This document shows positions 23,742-30,400 of a DNA stretch of 33,940 bases, one piece after another. The position numbers were made by a program, and so were the translations under genes. The stretch's first letter is position 1; every line of letters starts with the position of its first letter. The DNA comes from Westiellopsis prolifica IICB1 (GTDB lineage Bacteria; Cyanobacteriota; Cyanobacteriia; Cyanobacteriales; Nostocaceae): assembly GCF_004323185.1 (NCBI RefSeq), contig NZ_NAPS01000002.1, positions 205,114-239,053 on the forward strand. Direction: 5' to 3'. Under the pieces are notes generated by a model, which was given only the letters and a program-made list of their open reading frames with translations, was not told where the DNA came from and ran no database searches.

Positions 23742-25025
23742 ATGGTAATTACAAGAAATGGACTTGTTTTGAGTGCTACGGCGGTGACGCTATCCACAAT
23801 CGCTGTTACTAGTCTTGGCATTCACTCGCAAGGACAAGCTCTTTTTAAAGAAAGTCCAAAGGAATTAATAGATGAAGTTTGGCAAGTTATTAATAAACAA
23901 TACGTAGACGGTAATTTTAATAAGGTAGATTGGAAAGCTGTTCGCAGTGAGTACCTGAACAAGTCTTACAAAAACAACGAAGAAGCTTATAAGTCCATCC
24001 GGGAAATGCTGAAGAAGTTGGGCGACCCATACACCCGGTTTATGGATCCAGAGGAATTCAAAAATATGCAGGTTGATACCTCTGGAGAACTGACGGGTAT
24101 TGGTATCCAAATCGGTCTGGATGAAAAAACCAAAAAGCTAACTGTAATTTCTCCTATTGAGGATACACCAGCATTTAAAGCTGGCATCCTTGCTAAGGAT
24201 ACCATTATCTACATCAATGGTAAAAGTACTGAGGGGATGGATACTAATCAAGCAGTAGCTTTGATCCGAGGTGAACCTGGGAGCAAAGTTAATTTAACTA
24301 TCCTGCGTCAGGGTCAAAGAAAAGAATTTACAATTACGCGGGCGCGGATTGAAATTCATCCAGTAGAATTTTCTCAAAAGCAAACGCCTGTAGGTAATGT
24401 TGGCTACATTCGCTTAAAGCAATTTAGTTCAAATGCTGCCAAAGAAATGCGGGATGCAATCAGAAATTTAGAGAGTAAGCAAGTATCTGGATACGTGTTG
24501 GATTTACGTAATAATCCAGGTGGTCTTCTTTACTCAAGTGTAGATATTGCCCGGATGTGGATGGATAGAGGCACGATTGTTTCTACTATTGACCGTCGGG
24601 GTGAGGTAGAACGAGAAATTGCCAATGGACGGGCTTTGACAAATAAACCCTTGGTGGTATTGGTAGATAAAGGTAGTGCCAGTGCTAGTGAAATTCTTTC
24701 AGGTGCATTGCAGGACAACAAGCGTGCAGTTGTAGTGGGTAGTCAAACTTTTGGTAAAGGCCTAGTACAATCTGTGCGCCCCCTAGATGATGGTTCAGGA
24801 TTAGCAGTAACGATCGCCAAATACCATACCCCCCTTGGTAGAGATATCAACAAACATGGGATTGACCCGAACATAGTAGTGGATTTAAGCGATAAGCAGC
24901 GACAAGACCTGTGGCTCAAAGAACGAGAAAAAGTCGCGACTTTAGCAGATCCACAATTCGCTAAAGCTGTGGAAGTGTTAGGCAAAGAAATTGCAGCTAA
25001 AGGGACAAATGCACAAAGAAATTAA
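23742..25025 (+). CDS. Carboxyl-terminal processing protease (CtpA/CtpC-type, family S41)
   Basis: A lumenal or periplasmic protease; CtpA in this family trims the D1 protein of photosystem II, while CtpB and CtpC have other substrates. A signal peptide or anchor spans about 1-33. The PDZ domain is at about 105-190 (GIGIQIG, GILAKDTIIYING). The S41 domain has GSASASEI with Ser314 and FGKG with Lys339. The 25-residue spacing equals that of the Ser372/Lys397 dyad of algal D1 protease. The 427-residue length fits. I cannot tell which paralogue it is; I lean to CtpC or CtpB. It is convergent with the next small gene, only 9 bases apart. Confidence 0.92.
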   Translation: MVITRNGLVLSATAVTLSTIAVTSLGIHSQGQALFKESPKELIDEVWQVINKQYVDGNFNKVDWKAVRSEYLNKSYKNNEEAYKSIREMLKKLGDPYTRFMDPEEFKNMQVDTSGELTGIGIQIGLDEKTKKLTVISPIEDTPAFKAGILAKDTIIYINGKSTEGMDTNQAVALIRGEPGSKVNLTILRQGQRKEFTITRARIEIHPVEFSQKQTPVGNVGYIRLKQFSSNAAKEMRDAIRNLESKQVSGYVLDLRNNPGGLLYSSVDIARMWMDRGTIVSTIDRRGEVEREIANGRALTNKPLVVLVDKGSASASEILSGALQDNKRAVVVGSQTFGKGLVQSVRPLDDGSGLAVTIAKYHTPLGRDINKHGIDPNIVVDLSDKQRQDLWLKEREKVATLADPQFAKAVEVLGKEIAAKGTNAQRN

Positions 25026-25034
25026 TTTTTGCCT

Positions 25035-25226
25035 CTAGACTGGTTGGCATTTACCTGCTCTAATCAGTCCAACACGACGAGCGATCGCTTCCCCTTGCGA
25101 TTCAAAGGGACCCCACTTCTCTATAATCTCAGGATTGTCATCCCCAGTAACTTCATCGCTGGGGATGATTTCGCAATTTCCAGCAGGGCGCTTGACAATA
25201 TATAAGTTTTGTAGTGTTGTTTCCAT
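25035..25226 (-). CDS. Small conserved cyanobacterial protein of unknown function
   Basis: A 63-residue soluble protein. The N-terminal half has NLYIVKRPAGNCEIIPSDEV and the C-terminal half WGPFESQGEAIARRVGLIRAGKCQPV, a pattern that looks like a compact beta-beta-alpha domain. I recall similar short proteins in cyanobacteria but no function. No Shine-Dalgarno sequence is visible. It is divergent from the phytochelatin-synthase-like gene, 144 bp away, and the two could share a regulatory region. Confidence 0.7.
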   Translation of the reverse strand: METTLQNLYIVKRPAGNCEIIPSDEVTGDDNPEIIEKWGPFESQGEAIARRVGLIRAGKCQPV

Positions 25227-25370
25227 AATTTTGAGTACTTATTTGCTTGCTGAAGAAATTTTAAAGCTTCGGTGCATCCGATGGAATTGATGGGTTAATA
25301 GTCAATAGTAGCAAGCACTACGTTAATTATTTCAATTAATAAACCTGCTCTAATATCAAGGATCTTTCCC

Positions 25371-26039
25371 ATGACTTCCCAACAATTAGCCACCGATAAC
25401 ACAACAGATTTAGATGCGATTAAGCAATCTGGTTTTGAACCATCTGATCAAGTTGTAGGTACTCTTGTTACAAAAGTTGTTACCAAAGATTTAAATGGTA
25501 TTAAGCTGTGTGAATTTCAACAGCCCATCAACTGCTGTAACATCACTTCTATCGCCTATGCACTCACAGCACTAGGCTATCCAACAACAGTGGATGAGGT
25601 TTTCTATGTTACTAGATTACCGATCGCTACTGTTTTAGATGATGGAATGACCCTCGCTGAGACTTATGACACTTGTGTTAATTATGTGAATGGCGCAAAA
25701 TTAGATGTCAGTGTCAGACTCGAACATTTTGACAAAGTTTCTATGAGTTTAGATGCTTTTGTCAAAGAAATTGAAAACGCTGTCCAGGATGACAAAGACA
25801 TTCATATTTTAAATTTTAATGTTGGCATTGCCCATGAAGTTAGCTTTGCGGGTGGTCATTTCTCCCTAGTAGCAGATTACAATCCAACAACAAAGGAGAT
25901 CACTGTAGCTGACACCAACCCCAAAAAATATACACGCTTCTGGAAATGTCCAATAGACAGAATGTACAAAGCTTGTGTAGACAAAGATTTATCTGCTACC
26001 CGCTCTCGTGGGATGATCGTCATCCGGAAAAATTCTTAG
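25371..26039 (+). CDS. Divergent phytochelatin-synthase-like papain-fold protein
   Basis: A 222-residue cytoplasmic protein without signal peptide that looks like a short phytochelatin synthase. Such enzymes cleave glycine from glutathione or transfer gamma-Glu-Cys. Candidate active-site residues are Gln50 (oxyanion hole), Cys56, His163 in GGHFSLVADY and Asp181 in VADTNPKKY. Two spacings match those I recall for the Nostoc enzyme alr0975 (Gln64, Cys70, His183, Asp201): 6 residues Gln-Cys and 18 residues His-Asp. The CGVAS motif reads CNITS and is preceded by another Cys (Cys55). The C-terminal RSRGMIVI resembles the family ending. Substrate and reaction are unknown, and the divergence argues against simply naming it phytochelatin synthase. 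The ATG at 25371 has only a weak AAGGAT upstream. Confidence 0.75.
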   Translation: MTSQQLATDNTTDLDAIKQSGFEPSDQVVGTLVTKVVTKDLNGIKLCEFQQPINCCNITSIAYALTALGYPTTVDEVFYVTRLPIATVLDDGMTLAETYDTCVNYVNGAKLDVSVRLEHFDKVSMSLDAFVKEIENAVQDDKDIHILNFNVGIAHEVSFAGGHFSLVADYNPTTKEITVADTNPKKYTRFWKCPIDRMYKACVDKDLSATRSRGMIVIRKNS

Positions 26040-26064
26040 TCAGGATTTTGGAATTTGGATAAGT

Positions 26065-26256
26065 GAACTACCCACACTGACCTTACGGGTGAGATGTGAG
26101 GCTTCTTGCGGTTTTAGCTAAAAGCCTGGAAATAGAAGCAAGTAGAGCGATCGCATCAATTAAGATAGTGAGTGTACGAATTACCCAGCGCGATCGCTCA
26201 CTAGATATTTTCTCACAGTGTGAACTACCCCGCCGCACAGGCGGACGGGGCTTCTG
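26065..26256. mobile_element. Relic of IS200/IS605-type or palindrome-associated element
   Basis: Two motifs about 155 bp apart both begin GAACTACCC and end GGCTTCT: 26065-26106 and 26222-26255. The second forms a strong imperfect hairpin, CCCCGCCGC-acag-GCGG-a-CGGGG (26228-26250), followed by CTTCTG. Such a hairpin before GGCTTCTG is typical of IS200/IS605-family ends in cyanobacteria. No tnpA or tnpB reading frame is left between them, so it is a relic or a non-autonomous derivative. Confidence 0.55.
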
Positions 26257-26301
26257 TCAGAATAGTAAGCGTTTACCTTTGAAGAATTACCAGGCATCCA
26301 A

Positions 26302-26793
26302 CTAGTAAACACTCACATGAAGTGTGTAGGTTAATACCCCAGTTCCACTGCTTTCCTGAGTCACATTGACACCGGGACCTCTAAATTTGACATTTACTGA
26401 AGATGATGCAGGAGAATAACGTGCAGATATTTTTACTGTATGTTTTCCCACAAAAAGATAGGGCGACAGGTTAACATCGGTTCTGTTACCACGTATCTGT
26501 CTAATAACTTTGCCATTGAAAGTGACCTTACCTTGTAATTGAGATCCTGAAGTACTAATGCTAAGGATGTGTGGATGACTCAGATTGACTGCACTAAGAC
26601 TGATGGTAATTTGTTGGTAATCAGATGAACTGCGATAATTTTGGCTCTTAATAGCTGTGGCACTATTGACATCAATATTGTTGTGATACTGAATGATAGA
26701 ATTTTGGGCATTGGGGATAATATTGTGGGCTACAGCCGTGTTCCCCACAGTTATTAAAACTACACAGGCTGCAAGAGCCCTTGGAGTTTTCAT
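26302..26793 (-). CDS. Secreted beta-rich protein of unknown function
   Basis: A 163-residue protein starting with a clear signal peptide (MKTPRALAACVVLITVGNTAVA). The mature part is rich in Ser, Asn, Val and Ile and alternates polar and hydrophobic residues, which predicts a beta-sandwich. The segment FNGKVIRQIRGNRTDVNLSPYLFVGKHTVKISARYSP is the most structured; SPYLFVGKHTV is reminiscent of carbohydrate-binding-like modules, but I cannot assign a family. No Cys remains in the mature protein. It is the last of three co-oriented genes for secreted proteins, 103 bp after the next one, with a perfect 12-bp hairpin in that gap. Confidence 0.75.
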   Translation of the reverse strand: MKTPRALAACVVLITVGNTAVAHNIIPNAQNSIIQYHNNIDVNSATAIKSQNYRSSSDYQQITISLSAVNLSHPHILSISTSGSQLQGKVTFNGKVIRQIRGNRTDVNLSPYLFVGKHTVKISARYSPASSSVNVKFRGPGVNVTQESSGTGVLTYTLHVSVY

Positions 26794-26829
26794 ACATATT
26801 CAGATGACGAATAAAATCTTACTCTGGCT

Positions 26830-26864
26830 TGTTCTTGAGTTGGTTAATGAGTAACTCAAGAACA
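26830..26864. promoter_or_regulatory. Perfect 12-bp inverted repeat between two secreted-protein genes
   Basis: TGTTCTTGAGTT (26830-26841) and AACTCAAGAACA (26853-26864) enclose an 11-nt loop; another AACTCAAGAGC lies at about 26886. It sits 37 bp upstream of the 26302 gene and just after the 26897 gene. No U-run follows on the - strand, so an operator or mRNA-stabilising hairpin is as likely as a terminator. Confidence 0.6.
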
Positions 26865-26896
26865 TTTGCCAAGTTGTGCGCGATTAACTCAAGAGC

Positions 26897-27394
26897 TTAA
26901 TTCTGAGTTCCAGCTTGAGCTATTCCTAGAGCTTCATTAGCTTTAACAATTGCTTTAGATATTGCCTGCACAGAGCCAGTATCTCCTTTGGCTTCAGCTT
27001 GTGCCTCACCCATAAAAGCTACTGCTTGAGAGACTGCTGTAGCCACTTGAAAGTTATCCCCTTTCTGAGCTGAACTTTGAGCTGTAGCCATCGACTGTTG
27101 AGCCTGTATGAGCTTCGGTAGAATAATATCTCTGTACTTCGATGGGACGTTGACTGGTACGGTCTGTGCCACTGTTTGAACTACAGTTACTGCCTGATTC
27201 AATACCTTTACTGCCACGGCAACAGCAACCCCTACCGATATATTCTCTTGAGTAACAACGAACTCGGAGTCACCCAATGCATTACCATTACTTAACTGTT
27301 GGTAATTAGATGAGAATGATAATGCTTGATCAGAGAAAATTACCAGCAAACCCATCACTAAAGCTGTTACTTGACTTAAGTGATTGTTTTCCAT
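26897..27394 (-). CDS. Secreted Ala/Gln-rich helical protein
   Basis: A 165-residue protein of unknown function. A signal peptide covers about residues 1-28 (QVTALVMGLLVIFSDQALSFS). A Val/Ala-rich segment follows (ISVGVAVAVAVKVLNQAVTVVQTVAQTV). The C-terminal half is two Ala-rich helical units (QAQQSMATAQSSAQKGD, then VSQAVAFMGEAQAEAKGD and AISKAIVKANEALGIAQAG). The ending is similar to that of the neighbouring gene at 27526 (ASAKTAVGSATAIAQSS), so the two are probably distant paralogues. The frame extends to 27436, but the ATG at 27394 has AGGAG 9 bases upstream and gives a proper signal peptide. Confidence 0.75.
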   Translation of the reverse strand: MENNHLSQVTALVMGLLVIFSDQALSFSSNYQQLSNGNALGDSEFVVTQENISVGVAVAVAVKVLNQAVTVVQTVAQTVPVNVPSKYRDIILPKLIQAQQSMATAQSSAQKGDNFQVATAVSQAVAFMGEAQAEAKGDTGSVQAISKAIVKANEALGIAQAGTQN

Positions 27395-27525
27395 CCTGCT
27401 CATCTCCTGATTCAAAAACCGAGAGGGTGCGTCCATCCTCGTTGAAATCAGAGATTGTGTGCGCCCTCTCCAACCTCTCGTGAAGATAAAGCTTTCTAAA
27501 TTTGCAATTAACTCACTTATGAAGT

Positions 27526-28056
27526 TTATTGAGTACTGCTTTGAGCAATAGCAGTCGCGCTACCCACAGCAGTTTTTGCACTAGCTAGTGATTTGGCAAT
27601 AGCTGGTTTACCGGGTCCACTAATAGCGTCCGATTGTGCTATGGCTAACGCATCACCAAGGACTGTTTCTGCTTGCGATAGCGAAACAGCAACTGCTTTT
27701 TTGTCACTGATAGCCGTTGAACCAGAAATAGCAGTAGCATTCCCAATTAAAGTTTTGGCCTGAGCGATCGACTCAGCTAAAGCATCTTTCTTAGGTCCAC
27801 CAATAGCTTGTGATTGAGCAGCAGCTAAAGCATTTCCTAATGAAGTTTCTGCGATGGCTACTGATTGTGAATACGCTTTTACGTTTCTGAGAGCAATATT
27901 ATGAGGGACTTGAGCAATAAGGATCTCGGTGTTACCTAATCTATTTATACGGGTTATTTCTGCAATTCTATATGTACTTGCAAATGCCGTACCTGAGAAA
28001 CTAAGAAGTGATCCGATCGCTACAGCAGTAACTTTGTAAAAAAGTGTATTTTTCAT
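27526..28056 (-). CDS. Secreted protein with four Ala-rich 30-residue repeats
   Basis: A 176-residue protein of unknown function. A signal peptide ends near residue 26 (LLSFSGTAFAS). From about residue 62 to the end there are about four units of 28-32 residues with the pattern S-x-x-x-A-[EK]-T-x-[LV]-G-[ND]-A-x-A-I-A-Q-S-x-A-I, then [GD]-x-x-K-x-A-[LIV]-A. Compare AETSLGNALAAAQSQAI and AETVLGDALAIAQSDAI. Each unit would form amphipathic helices with small side chains that can pack closely. The ATG has AGAGGT about 6 bases upstream. A 16-bp perfect palindrome lies 96 bp upstream. The repeat family is not one I can name. Confidence 0.8.
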   Translation of the reverse strand: MKNTLFYKVTAVAIGSLLSFSGTAFASTYRIAEITRINRLGNTEILIAQVPHNIALRNVKAYSQSVAIAETSLGNALAAAQSQAIGGPKKDALAESIAQAKTLIGNATAISGSTAISDKKAVAVSLSQAETVLGDALAIAQSDAISGPGKPAIAKSLASAKTAVGSATAIAQSSTQ

Positions 28057-28645
28057 ATTTACCTCTAGAGAGTTTAACTCTCATTTGTGTAAAAACTAAT
28101 TAATTTTTAGCTTTGATAAATTATCTATCTAGCTTAAAATCCTTTCTTTTAACTCTATTAATAGAGTAAAAGATAAATATGAAGAAGCTGTGAGGATATA
28201 TCTGCTATTCACAAAAGAAAACAATTAATAGCAAACAAGAAAAGTATATTTTTCATAATTTTTGTTTCTTAAAACTTACAGTATTTTTCGGAAAATATAT
28301 TAATTTTTAAGTTAATCAATCTTTTGATTACAAAATATTTATCACACTTTTTGAGTACTCAGACAATTGGCTATCTTCTAATAGTAATTAACAAATAAGT
28401 TGGCAACTCCAACGTTACCTGGTGGCACGATGACTCAAAGCTAATTGTTCACATTTGCATATGGAGTCGAGTATTTTAAACTAAAATTAGCGTCATCAGA
28501 TATTTTGCTGGAGTTTAAATTGCAATCAGGCTTATTTAAGAGGCAGAATATAAAGTCCATAAGTATGGCCTGTAGAGTTAAAATGCAAGCCCTACTTAAC
28601 TACTACAGTATATGGACTAGTTGTAAGCAACGTGCATTTTAATTT
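28057..28645. other. 589-bp AT-rich intergenic region with a 16-bp palindrome
   Basis: It contains a perfect palindrome, ACTCTATTAATAGAGT (28152-28167), in the upstream region of the secreted repeat-protein gene, and a small hairpin near 28282-28300. A 65-codon open frame at 28445-28642 has no coding character. I see no RNA gene or transposon end here. Confidence 0.6.
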
Positions 28646-30400
28646 CTATAAAATATGCCATACTTTTTTCGCCAATTGAGTAAGCATTTCTTGACGTCTT
28701 TCAATATCTTTAGAATTCCATTCATCAAACACTTCCAAATCTCTAACAGCACGGTCTACTGCTGTGTTTACACCAATATTTATTTTCTCGGTGATAGACT
28801 TCGTAAGCAAAAATTTAGATTTAACGTAAGCAAATTGTTTTTCCTTAAAAATTTTATTTTTAATTGAAGTATTAATTGATTTTTCAATAAGTGTAAGATT
28901 GCCAAGTCTTTTTGTGTAATTATCTATTTCATCAGGTTTGTCAAAAAAAGTTTTTATTTTATCGTTTTTTTGAGGTAGTATATGTTCTATTTCTACTTTA
29001 GAGTTTATATAATTTTTTAAATCGCTGTGTGCTGCAATACTACCATAAGCTTTTTCATCAATATATTGTGTCATTTTGGCTAAAATATATTGCAAAATCT
29101 TTTTCTGTACATCAGATTCATTCATCTGACGGAAAGATTCTTCAAAGCGCTTGGCCAATTTTTGTTTAGCAGGCTGAATATCTTCAGATATAAAAGTTTC
29201 AAGATCAGATTTACTATAGACTTTTCTTAGCTTTTCACTCCATTGAGTCAATAAATTTTCAAGTTTACTAGTTCCTTCTCTTGTTACAATATGTACAAAT
29301 AAAAAATCTTCAATTTGTCTACATAGTTCTGTAAATATATCTATTGATAAATGCTGCGATGCTAATAGCAGTATCAAATGCTGTTTAGTAGAAAAATAAG
29401 ATATGTTTAGCAGGTAGCGGTTCGCTTCCCCAGATTTGTTCTTACCTTTTTTAAAATTGAAAAAAGCTTCTGCCGAATTGACAAGATTATCCACAAATTC
29501 TAGTGGCTGTTCTACATAGTTGCACTTGTCCTTGTTTTCAATAAACCAATCATATATTCTATCTTCTCTGAGTCTCTCTCCTGTATCAAATTTTGCAGTT
29601 ATATAGTATCTAAGAAACCGCAAAGGTTTTTCATCTGCCTTAAACAATATATCAATCATTTCTTTCCATTGCATTTTAAGCTTGTCAAAATTTTTACCTT
29701 CTAAATGCATAAACATAAGGTTTTTAAGCAAATCCATAGCATTGAGACTTACTCCGCGATTATTGATAGTTGCAAAAACTGTAAGTGCATGTGATATATT
29801 CTTTGTTTCTACACGCACTAGTTTGACATTTTTAATCAAGCACGCATAAAACTGCTTTACCTGTTGGATATCTTCATCAAATTTTTCTTTTAAGAATTCC
29901 ACAATAGAAGTATAGGCATTTTTTATTTTTTGAACAGAACTAGTATTAGGTACATCATTAAAACTTTCTTGCCGTGCAATTTTTTCTAAAACACCACGGC
30001 TATCTTCATACTGAAGCTCTATTCTATCTCTAAATCTTTCATTACCATATTGATCTACATACGAAGAAGCTATAAATGATTTCAGAGAATCTAGAGATTC
30101 TTGAGGTTTTACTTGTTCTCGATAATCTCTTACTGCACAAAGAATTAAGTATGCTGTAGTCATTCTTTGTTGCCCATCAATTAATTCAAAGGCTCCTTGA
30201 TATTCACATACAATAATGCTGCCAATAAAATACTCCCAATCTGAGCCAGATTTATTTCTATAAAATTCTCGATAAATATCTTCAAGAAGTTCACGAACTT
30301 GTTTCTCTTCCCAAACATACTCGCGTTGATAAGCTCTAACTACATAAAAATCCCTAAATACTTGTTCTAAAGTATAGTCATGAGATTCAATTATTGCCAT
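28646..30400 (-). CDS. DUF262/DUF1524 protein (GmrSD-like, putative anti-phage nuclease)
   Basis: Proteins with this pair of domains include the type IV modification-dependent restriction enzyme GmrSD and related anti-phage systems. The 584-residue single chain has the DUF262 N-terminus, with RAYQREYVW (22-30) and the nucleotide-binding motif DGQQRMTTAY (Asp75-Arg79). The DUF1524 C-terminus has the HNH-like site KVEIEHILPQ (His473) and RLGNLTLIEKSIN...N, followed by IFKEKQF. The coding sequence is AT-rich and I saw no HIP1 site in it, unlike its neighbours, which suggests transfer. GAGAT lies about 4 bases before the ATG. No partner gene is adjacent, so it appears to act alone. The specificity for modified phage DNA is inferred from the family. 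Confidence 0.9.
   Translation of the reverse strand: MAIIESHDYTLEQVFRDFYVVRAYQREYVWEEKQVRELLEDIYREFYRNKSGSDWEYFIGSIIVCEYQGAFELIDGQQRMTTAYLILCAVRDYREQVKPQESLDSLKSFIASSYVDQYGNERFRDRIELQYEDSRGVLEKIARQESFNDVPNTSSVQKIKNAYTSIVEFLKEKFDEDIQQVKQFYACLIKNVKLVRVETKNISHALTVFATINNRGVSLNAMDLLKNLMFMHLEGKNFDKLKMQWKEMIDILFKADEKPLRFLRYYITAKFDTGERLREDRIYDWFIENKDKCNYVEQPLEFVDNLVNSAEAFFNFKKGKNKSGEANRYLLNISYFSTKQHLILLLASQHLSIDIFTELCRQIEDFLFVHIVTREGTSKLENLLTQWSEKLRKVYSKSDLETFISEDIQPAKQKLAKRFEESFRQMNESDVQKKILQYILAKMTQYIDEKAYGSIAAHSDLKNYINSKVEIEHILPQKNDKIKTFFDKPDEIDNYTKRLGNLTLIEKSINTSIKNKIFKEKQFAYVKSKFLLTKSITEKINIGVNTAVDRAVRDLEVFDEWNSKDIERRQEMLTQLAKKVWHIL

Follow-up and report, generated by a model that had tools for sequence, protein, structure and literature searches.

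The gene at 25371..26039 (+) of the window, the 33,940-nucleotide stretch of DNA that was analysed, encodes a protein that belongs to the phytochelatin-synthase family and represents a branch that is, judged by its sequence, distinct within that family. Comparison of conserved positions suggested that the two halves of the active site had separate fates: the donor half looks inherited from the family, while the acceptor half looks rebuilt.

Gene structure and family membership

The reading frame starts with ATG and codes for 222 amino acids plus a stop. An AAGGA resembling a ribosome-binding site (25358..25362, +) lies 8 bases 5' of the ATG and is identical in the window and three relatives, and a comparison of the start region with these relatives (Fischerella and Pelatocladus loci L033-L035) found the ATG likewise common to all four. 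Residues 1-36 (25371..25478, +) form an N-terminal extension that is common to the Fischerella/Pelatocladus members, has low model confidence, and is missing or different in the rest of the branch, where the start codons of the relatives were chosen by rule. Over residues 37-222, the window gene and its three closest relatives (L033-L035) differed by a dS of 0.14-0.35 per site and a dN of 0.005-0.019, so that dN amounted to ~2-5% of dS and strong purifying selection on the protein can be deduced; synonymous sites were saturated in two more distant relatives, and the figures rest on the three closest. The earlier note had stated that a signal peptide is missing, which fits the weakly hydrophobic N-terminus of the window protein; as a distinction from other members of the family it is less clear, as this crude measure of hydrophobicity gave -0.53 to 1.67 for the branch and 1.1 to 2.92 for the short canonical rows, two ranges that overlap. 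The branch protein is probably cytosolic. A truncated copy was seen in Fischerella muscicola PCC 7414 (L043, ~1807-1959), which matches residues 3-53 only and stops just 5' of the Cys motif, a natural truncation unless it is an assembly fault. Directly upstream of the focal gene, an antisense 63-aa frame (25035-25226, -; METTLQNLYIVKRPAG...) may be an unlisted small gene, and the start of a like frame was found in L034. No Rfam RNA element scored over the gathering threshold in 24900-26500.

A Pfam profile search, proposed beforehand as a check of family membership, returned PF05023 (Phytochelatin) for the window protein at 49 bits compared to a cut-off of 24.9, and PF05023 was matched at E <= 0.01 by 11 of the 11 branch members scanned. 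The sole other Pfam match was Peptidase_C39_2 (PF13529) at 19 bits, below its cut-off of 24, and it was matched at E 0.01 by 5/11 members compared to 11/11 for PF05023. NCBIfam gave no match for the window protein and PHROGs gave weak matches only (E 0.02 or more); no stronger match to another peptidase family was thus found in the libraries scanned. Profile-profile comparison of the branch with the canonical enzymes yielded 98.4% probability (E 7e-15), pairing Q50, C56, H163, D181, D206 and R213 with canonical residues. Among solved structures, the entries of Alr0975, the Nostoc enzyme, were the only significant sequence matches (E ~1e-4 with the single sequence, 4e-8 with the profile).

AlphaFold models, built only from the window and the loci of the peptide-based genome scan, reached a pLDDT of 73.9 for the whole protein and a pLDDT of 81.5 with a pTM of 0.81 for residues 37-222. 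In Foldseek searches against the PDB, ranks 1-9 were occupied by Alr0975 chains with both the whole-protein model (E 9e-11 to 1e-9, TM by query 0.58-0.64) and the model of residues 37-222 (E 1e-11 to 4e-10, TM by query 0.72-0.76), and the identity to Alr0975 in these alignments was 22-25%, in agreement with the earlier remark that the remainder of the protein is poorly alike. The nearest fold after Alr0975 was 22oc, a 2026 PDB entry of P210 CD lyase (E 2e-7 and 3e-6, TM by query 0.55 and 0.65 for the two models, 12-13% identity), below which other papain-like proteins followed at E 3e-5 or weaker. The stretch around Gln50 had a pLDDT under 50 in the model of residues 37-222, so this model gives no confirmation of the place of Gln50; in the sequence alignment, the triad and the oxyanion Gln are in register with the family. 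Overall, the family match is not owed to chance, which we consider ruled out.

Phylogeny, carriers and gene neighbourhood

Residue counts were taken from one alignment of 79 rows, namely 20 branch sequences and 59 other family rows; the tree also has 79 rows and leaves out the truncated copy L043 and identical sequences, and long-type rows were trimmed to 250 aa. The 20 distinct branch sequences formed one group with 100/100 support, which bears out the earlier expectation that CNITS-type proteins are a clade of their own. The stem of this group is very long (5.85 changes per column) and joined weakly (68) to two cyanobacterial rows, with a bootstrap that had not yet settled; because the stem is so long, no sister group was taken from the tree. 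A CCN[IV]T motif is invariant in 20/20 branch sequences, 71 positions are identical throughout them, and a profile of 11 members scored 333-381 bits on branch members but no more than 40.5 bits on those canonical enzymes within its reach.

Spread was sampled within the phylum of the window and that of Polyangium, and the contig scan for relatives, which used short exact peptides from one query, finds close relatives only. Of 388 genomes sampled from the order of the window, 14 have a branch member, the window's genome among them, and two Polyangium species have one as well. In the sample of the Polyangium phylum, the branch profile matched 4/282 genomes, of which the search centre (G669) scored 350 bits and the other three were canonical-type at ~38 bits or less. 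In the 79-row alignment, two PF05023 relatives from this phylum (L100 and L101) have Ser and Gly where the catalytic Cys would stand and therefore may not be Cys enzymes. Nine of the 14 cyanobacterial carriers also have a full canonical gene and one (G168) has canonical fragments, while four, including the window's genome, lack another PF05023 match at E 0.001. When the limit was relaxed to E 1, one further match, of 13.3 bits and under the cut-off, appeared in the window's genome. The full canonical gene of G383 lies ~4.5 kb from its branch gene (L085), and in G168 the fragments of the canonical gene lie ~5 kb from an intact branch gene (L078).

Neighbours were compared across 18 loci, five genes being taken in each direction unless the locus was too short; the two Polyangium loci were left out because the gene caller had missed the gene in GC-rich DNA. 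An operon or system was rejected, as gene order was common only to close relatives in these 18 loci (the window with L033-L035; L076 with L088 and with L091; L078 with L079 and L085). Broad families recurred at differing places, namely ABC importer parts (L086; L078/L079/L085), methyltransferases (L083, L080) and an ATPase family (L077, L080), and their recurrence in unrelated loci was taken as chance. No supporting glutathione-metabolism neighbours were found among the 18 loci. A mobile or viral origin was likewise rejected: tblastn with the window protein gave no plasmid match at 1e-5 and no phage match at 1e-2, viral contigs gave nothing by either the branch or the canonical profile, and a viral structure library returned weaker papain-like matches only (best E 8e-8, 14% identity, an unnamed protein). 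An anti-phage role of the gene was discarded, with no PADLOC match at E 0.01. Elsewhere in the window, a gene at 28646-30400 (-) encodes a 584-aa GmrSD-type protein (PF03235 and PF07510; best PADLOC model Orf5, 740 bits); it sits in a GC-poor stretch (29.7% at 28001-30000 compared to 42.4% and 41.1% in the flanks) and is also present in 2/3 Fischerella/Pelatocladus loci. The stretch 26302-28056 (-) codes for three small proteins that begin with signal-like sequences and are not matched by Pfam; the products of 26897-27436 and 27526-28056 are mutually similar, and in L033 and L034, the related Fischerella loci, this place is taken by different genes.

Active-site residues and possible chemistry

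The earlier note had placed Gln50 and Cys56 six residues apart and His163 and Asp181 18 apart, as in the Nostoc enzyme Alr0975, and had pointed to a rewritten Cys motif. All four residues stand at these positions of the reading frame, the Alr0975-type relative L026 has the same spacing (Q66/C72 and H185/D203), and a Gly-His followed by Asp 18 residues on was found in all 74 of the 79 rows that could be placed, the other five being without the Cys motif sought. The motif itself reads NCCNITS in the window compared to QAYCGVAS in Alr0975. The residue table gives the five commonest letters per group, and the absence of the branch Cys at position 55 from other rows was also read from the motif table and the rows printed; since the motif table requires the branch motif that it tabulates and 5/59 other rows are without a motif, the counts below are those of the unselected alignments.

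On the donor side, Gln50 (25518..25520, +), the oxyanion-hole Gln, aligns with Q66 of L026 and corresponds to Gln64 of the Nostoc and Gln50 of the Arabidopsis enzyme (numbers from the available text of PMC3855540). The alignment assigns Cys56 as nucleophile and His163 (25857..25859, +) and Asp181 (25911..25913, +) as the remainder of the catalytic triad, and Asp206 and Arg213 (25986..26009, +) align with Asp225 and Arg232 of Nostoc. The triad, Gln50, Asp206 and Arg213 are invariant in 20/20 branch rows, and they are also highly conserved in the other rows (His163, Asp181 and Asp206 in 59/59, Gln50 in 58/59, Cys56 in 57/59 and Arg213 in 56/59). In the Nostoc acyl-enzyme, the Asp225/Arg232 pair grips the gamma-glutamyl group.

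The surroundings of the nucleophile are rewritten. Within Cys55-Cys56-Asn57 (25533..25541, +), the outer two residues are branch-specific and invariant (20/20): the residue before the nucleophile is Cys, compared to Tyr, Phe or Trp in 54/59 other rows, and the residue after it is Asn, compared to Gly in 56/59. The available text of PMC3855540 describes the second-substrate cavity of the Nostoc enzyme as lined by Gln64, Arg173, Lys206 and Tyr207, and reports that the Arabidopsis substitutions R152K, K185R or both abolished activity. Residues 151-155 (25821..25835, +) contain the position of Arg173, where the branch has Thr (12/20) or Val (8/20, the window included) compared to Arg in 58/59 others, as well as a branch-specific His155 that falls at a gap of 58/59 other rows. 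In residues 184-189 (PKKYTR; 25920..25937, +), Pro184 replaces the Arg of a DVxR motif present in 50/59 others, position 186 (Lys206 of Nostoc) is Lys in 8/20 and Arg in 12/20 compared to Lys in 51/59 others, Tyr187 (Tyr207 of Nostoc) is kept, and the new invariant Arg189 stands two residues past this Tyr, where 55/59 others have Pro. Cys193 and Cys202 (25947..25976, +) are invariant in 20/20 branch rows and occur in 0/59 other rows among the five commonest letters listed per group; F49, P52 and D169 are further new invariant residues. The second-substrate site is thus not intact: Gln and Tyr are retained and position 186 is Lys or Arg, but the counterpart of Arg173 is gone in 20/20.

The acceptor-site residues changed and the residues for the gamma-glutamyl group did not, which makes plausible the earlier proposal that the substrate is another gamma-glutamyl or peptide compound. 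The reading that we favour, at about even confidence, is a cytosolic enzyme that would form a gamma-glutamyl-peptide acyl-enzyme, hand the acyl group to water or another acceptor and make no phytochelatins. In such a single-domain papain-fold enzyme, His163 and Asp181 would activate Cys56, with Gln50 contributing to the oxyanion hole, for attack on the peptide bond in a gamma-glutamyl donor; the first candidate for this donor is glutathione or one of its conjugates. The resulting thioester (gamma-Glu-Cys or gamma-Glu-X) would be gripped by Asp206 and Arg213, and because the site of the second glutathione is rebuilt, its acyl group would pass to water or a different acceptor and not to Cd-glutathione, so that the enzyme would not be a phytochelatin synthase. 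A glutathione-synthetase-type gene was found in 7/7 carrier genomes tested; the PF02955 model used also responds in 8/14 control genomes, where it matches other ATP-grasp proteins as well. Some of the control genomes so matched are not known to have glutathione. The counterparts of Lys206 and Tyr207, kept or nearly so, favour the presence of some acceptor site like the original one, and inheritance of the substrate is uncertain because of the very long branch stem.

The main rival, possible but clearly less probable than the favoured reading, is that the branch left gamma-glutamyl chemistry and reused the papain-fold scaffold on another peptide, an amide or a protein side chain. The length of the stem, the rewritten nucleophile surroundings (F49, P52, C55, N57), the new invariant residues H155, D169, R189, C193 and C202 and the weak Peptidase_C39_2 match are all consistent with it, as are the lower-ranked folds, which comprise endoisopeptidases, C39 domains and a CtaG enzyme. 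It is opposed by the retention of the D206/R213 pair in 20/20 and by the fold searches, where the top Alr0975 chain had a better E than the nearest fold of another protein by over three (whole-protein model) and five (residues 37-222) orders of magnitude, the ninth chain being ahead by two orders only with the whole-protein model. A more specific possibility, which we advance tentatively and consider rather unlikely, is a gamma-glutamyl-peptide acyltransferase with a dedicated new acceptor, in which the rebuilt second site (Arg189, His155, Asp169, the vicinal Cys55-Cys56 and Cys193/Cys202) would serve to join gamma-Glu-Cys from glutathione to some peptide or small molecule that is not itself glutathione. 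If true, some cyanobacteria and Polyangium would have a novel thiol compound in common.

It is improbable that the branch is simply a cytosolic counterpart of Alr0975 without a new substrate, releasing gamma-glutamylcysteine and glycine as a glutathione peptidase. Alr0975 is reported in the available text of PMC7411734 as mainly a peptidase with weak PC2 formation, and 4/14 carriers are without another PF05023 match at E 0.001, so that the branch gene could replace the canonical enzyme there. However, Alr0975-type rows retain the acceptor Arg and the aromatic-Cys-Gly motif, both missing in the branch, and 9/14 carriers have both genes, whose roles therefore probably differ. An ordinary phytochelatin synthase of divergent sequence is highly improbable: the Pfam family name and the retained Lys186 (or Arg) and Tyr187 would suit it, and half-size forms are not barred from phytochelatin synthesis, given that the half-size Nostoc enzyme had a PC2 rate like that of the Schistosoma enzyme (PMC3561135, available text), but the second-substrate Arg is missing in 20/20, Pro184 takes the place of the usual Arg, and the nucleophile is preceded by Cys instead of an aromatic residue. 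Loss of catalysis or decay of the gene, of which the first part alone in L043 might be a sign, is scarcely credible with a triad invariant in 20/20 and a dN/dS of ~0.02-0.05.

Comparison with known enzymes

No description of the branch was found in the open-licence literature, to the extent that its text was available. A 2024 survey of cyanobacterial and algal enzymes (PMC11314372) distinguishes, in its available text, two groups, which differ in having Asn or Glu/Asp at the fourth position ahead of the catalytic Cys. Pro52 holds this position in 20/20 branch sequences, which places them outside the N and E/D groups, and the new branch that the earlier note had suggested stands as a very divergent one outside both. 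As far as its text describes, the survey collected sequences by BLASTP with a Chlamydomonas enzyme and then compared them with PROSITE patterns, a procedure that may explain why a third group is missing from it.

Alr0975 (NsPCS) of Nostoc sp. PCC 7120, the half-size or 'primitive' phytochelatin synthase (PDB 2BTW, 2BU3, 6TH5, 6THO, 6TJL), is the best structural match of the modelled branch protein. A lone PF05023 domain, the Gln-Cys-His-Asp order and spacing and the Asp/Arg and Lys/Tyr pairs are common to both, whereas the branch has CCN[IV]T for YCGVAS, is without the Arg173 counterpart, carries the new R189, H155, C55, C193 and C202, and has no evident signal sequence. In the available text of PMC7411734 and PMC3101182, Alr0975 acts chiefly as a glutathione peptidase and forms PC2 very weakly; in contrast, PMC3561135 has it, in the part available, making PC2 about as fast as the Schistosoma enzyme. 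The residues gripping the gamma-Glu group are not given in the available portions of PMC3561135 or PMC2812823. Plant-type synthases (AtPCS1 and the long cyanobacterial form, which is the E group of PMC11314372) also have the triad and oxyanion Gln, as seen in the 19 long cyanobacterial rows aligned, but the branch is without their C-terminal part. By the Arabidopsis numbers in the available text of PMC3855540, it has Phe at the place of Thr49 and Pro at that of the Glu four before the Cys, lacks an Arg152 counterpart, and has Pro where the spacing puts Arg183. With Peptidase C39-like proteins (PF13529), the branch shares the papain-like fold class, its match staying below the Pfam cut-off as given above.

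Databases may already list branch members as 'phytochelatin synthase family protein', as they do other divergent relatives, and the name 'phytochelatin synthase' should not be given to the branch. Under such a plain annotation, work on cyanobacterial metal tolerance would go astray, for instance by crediting the window's genome with this trait on the strength of the branch gene alone. The branch may also point to a metabolite derived from glutathione that has so far gone unrecognised. Phytochelatin synthase is the classic example of a protease fold that became a peptide maker, and the branch, in which the first half of the machinery appears kept and the second rebuilt, would provide a natural test of the residues that decide between cutting and joining.
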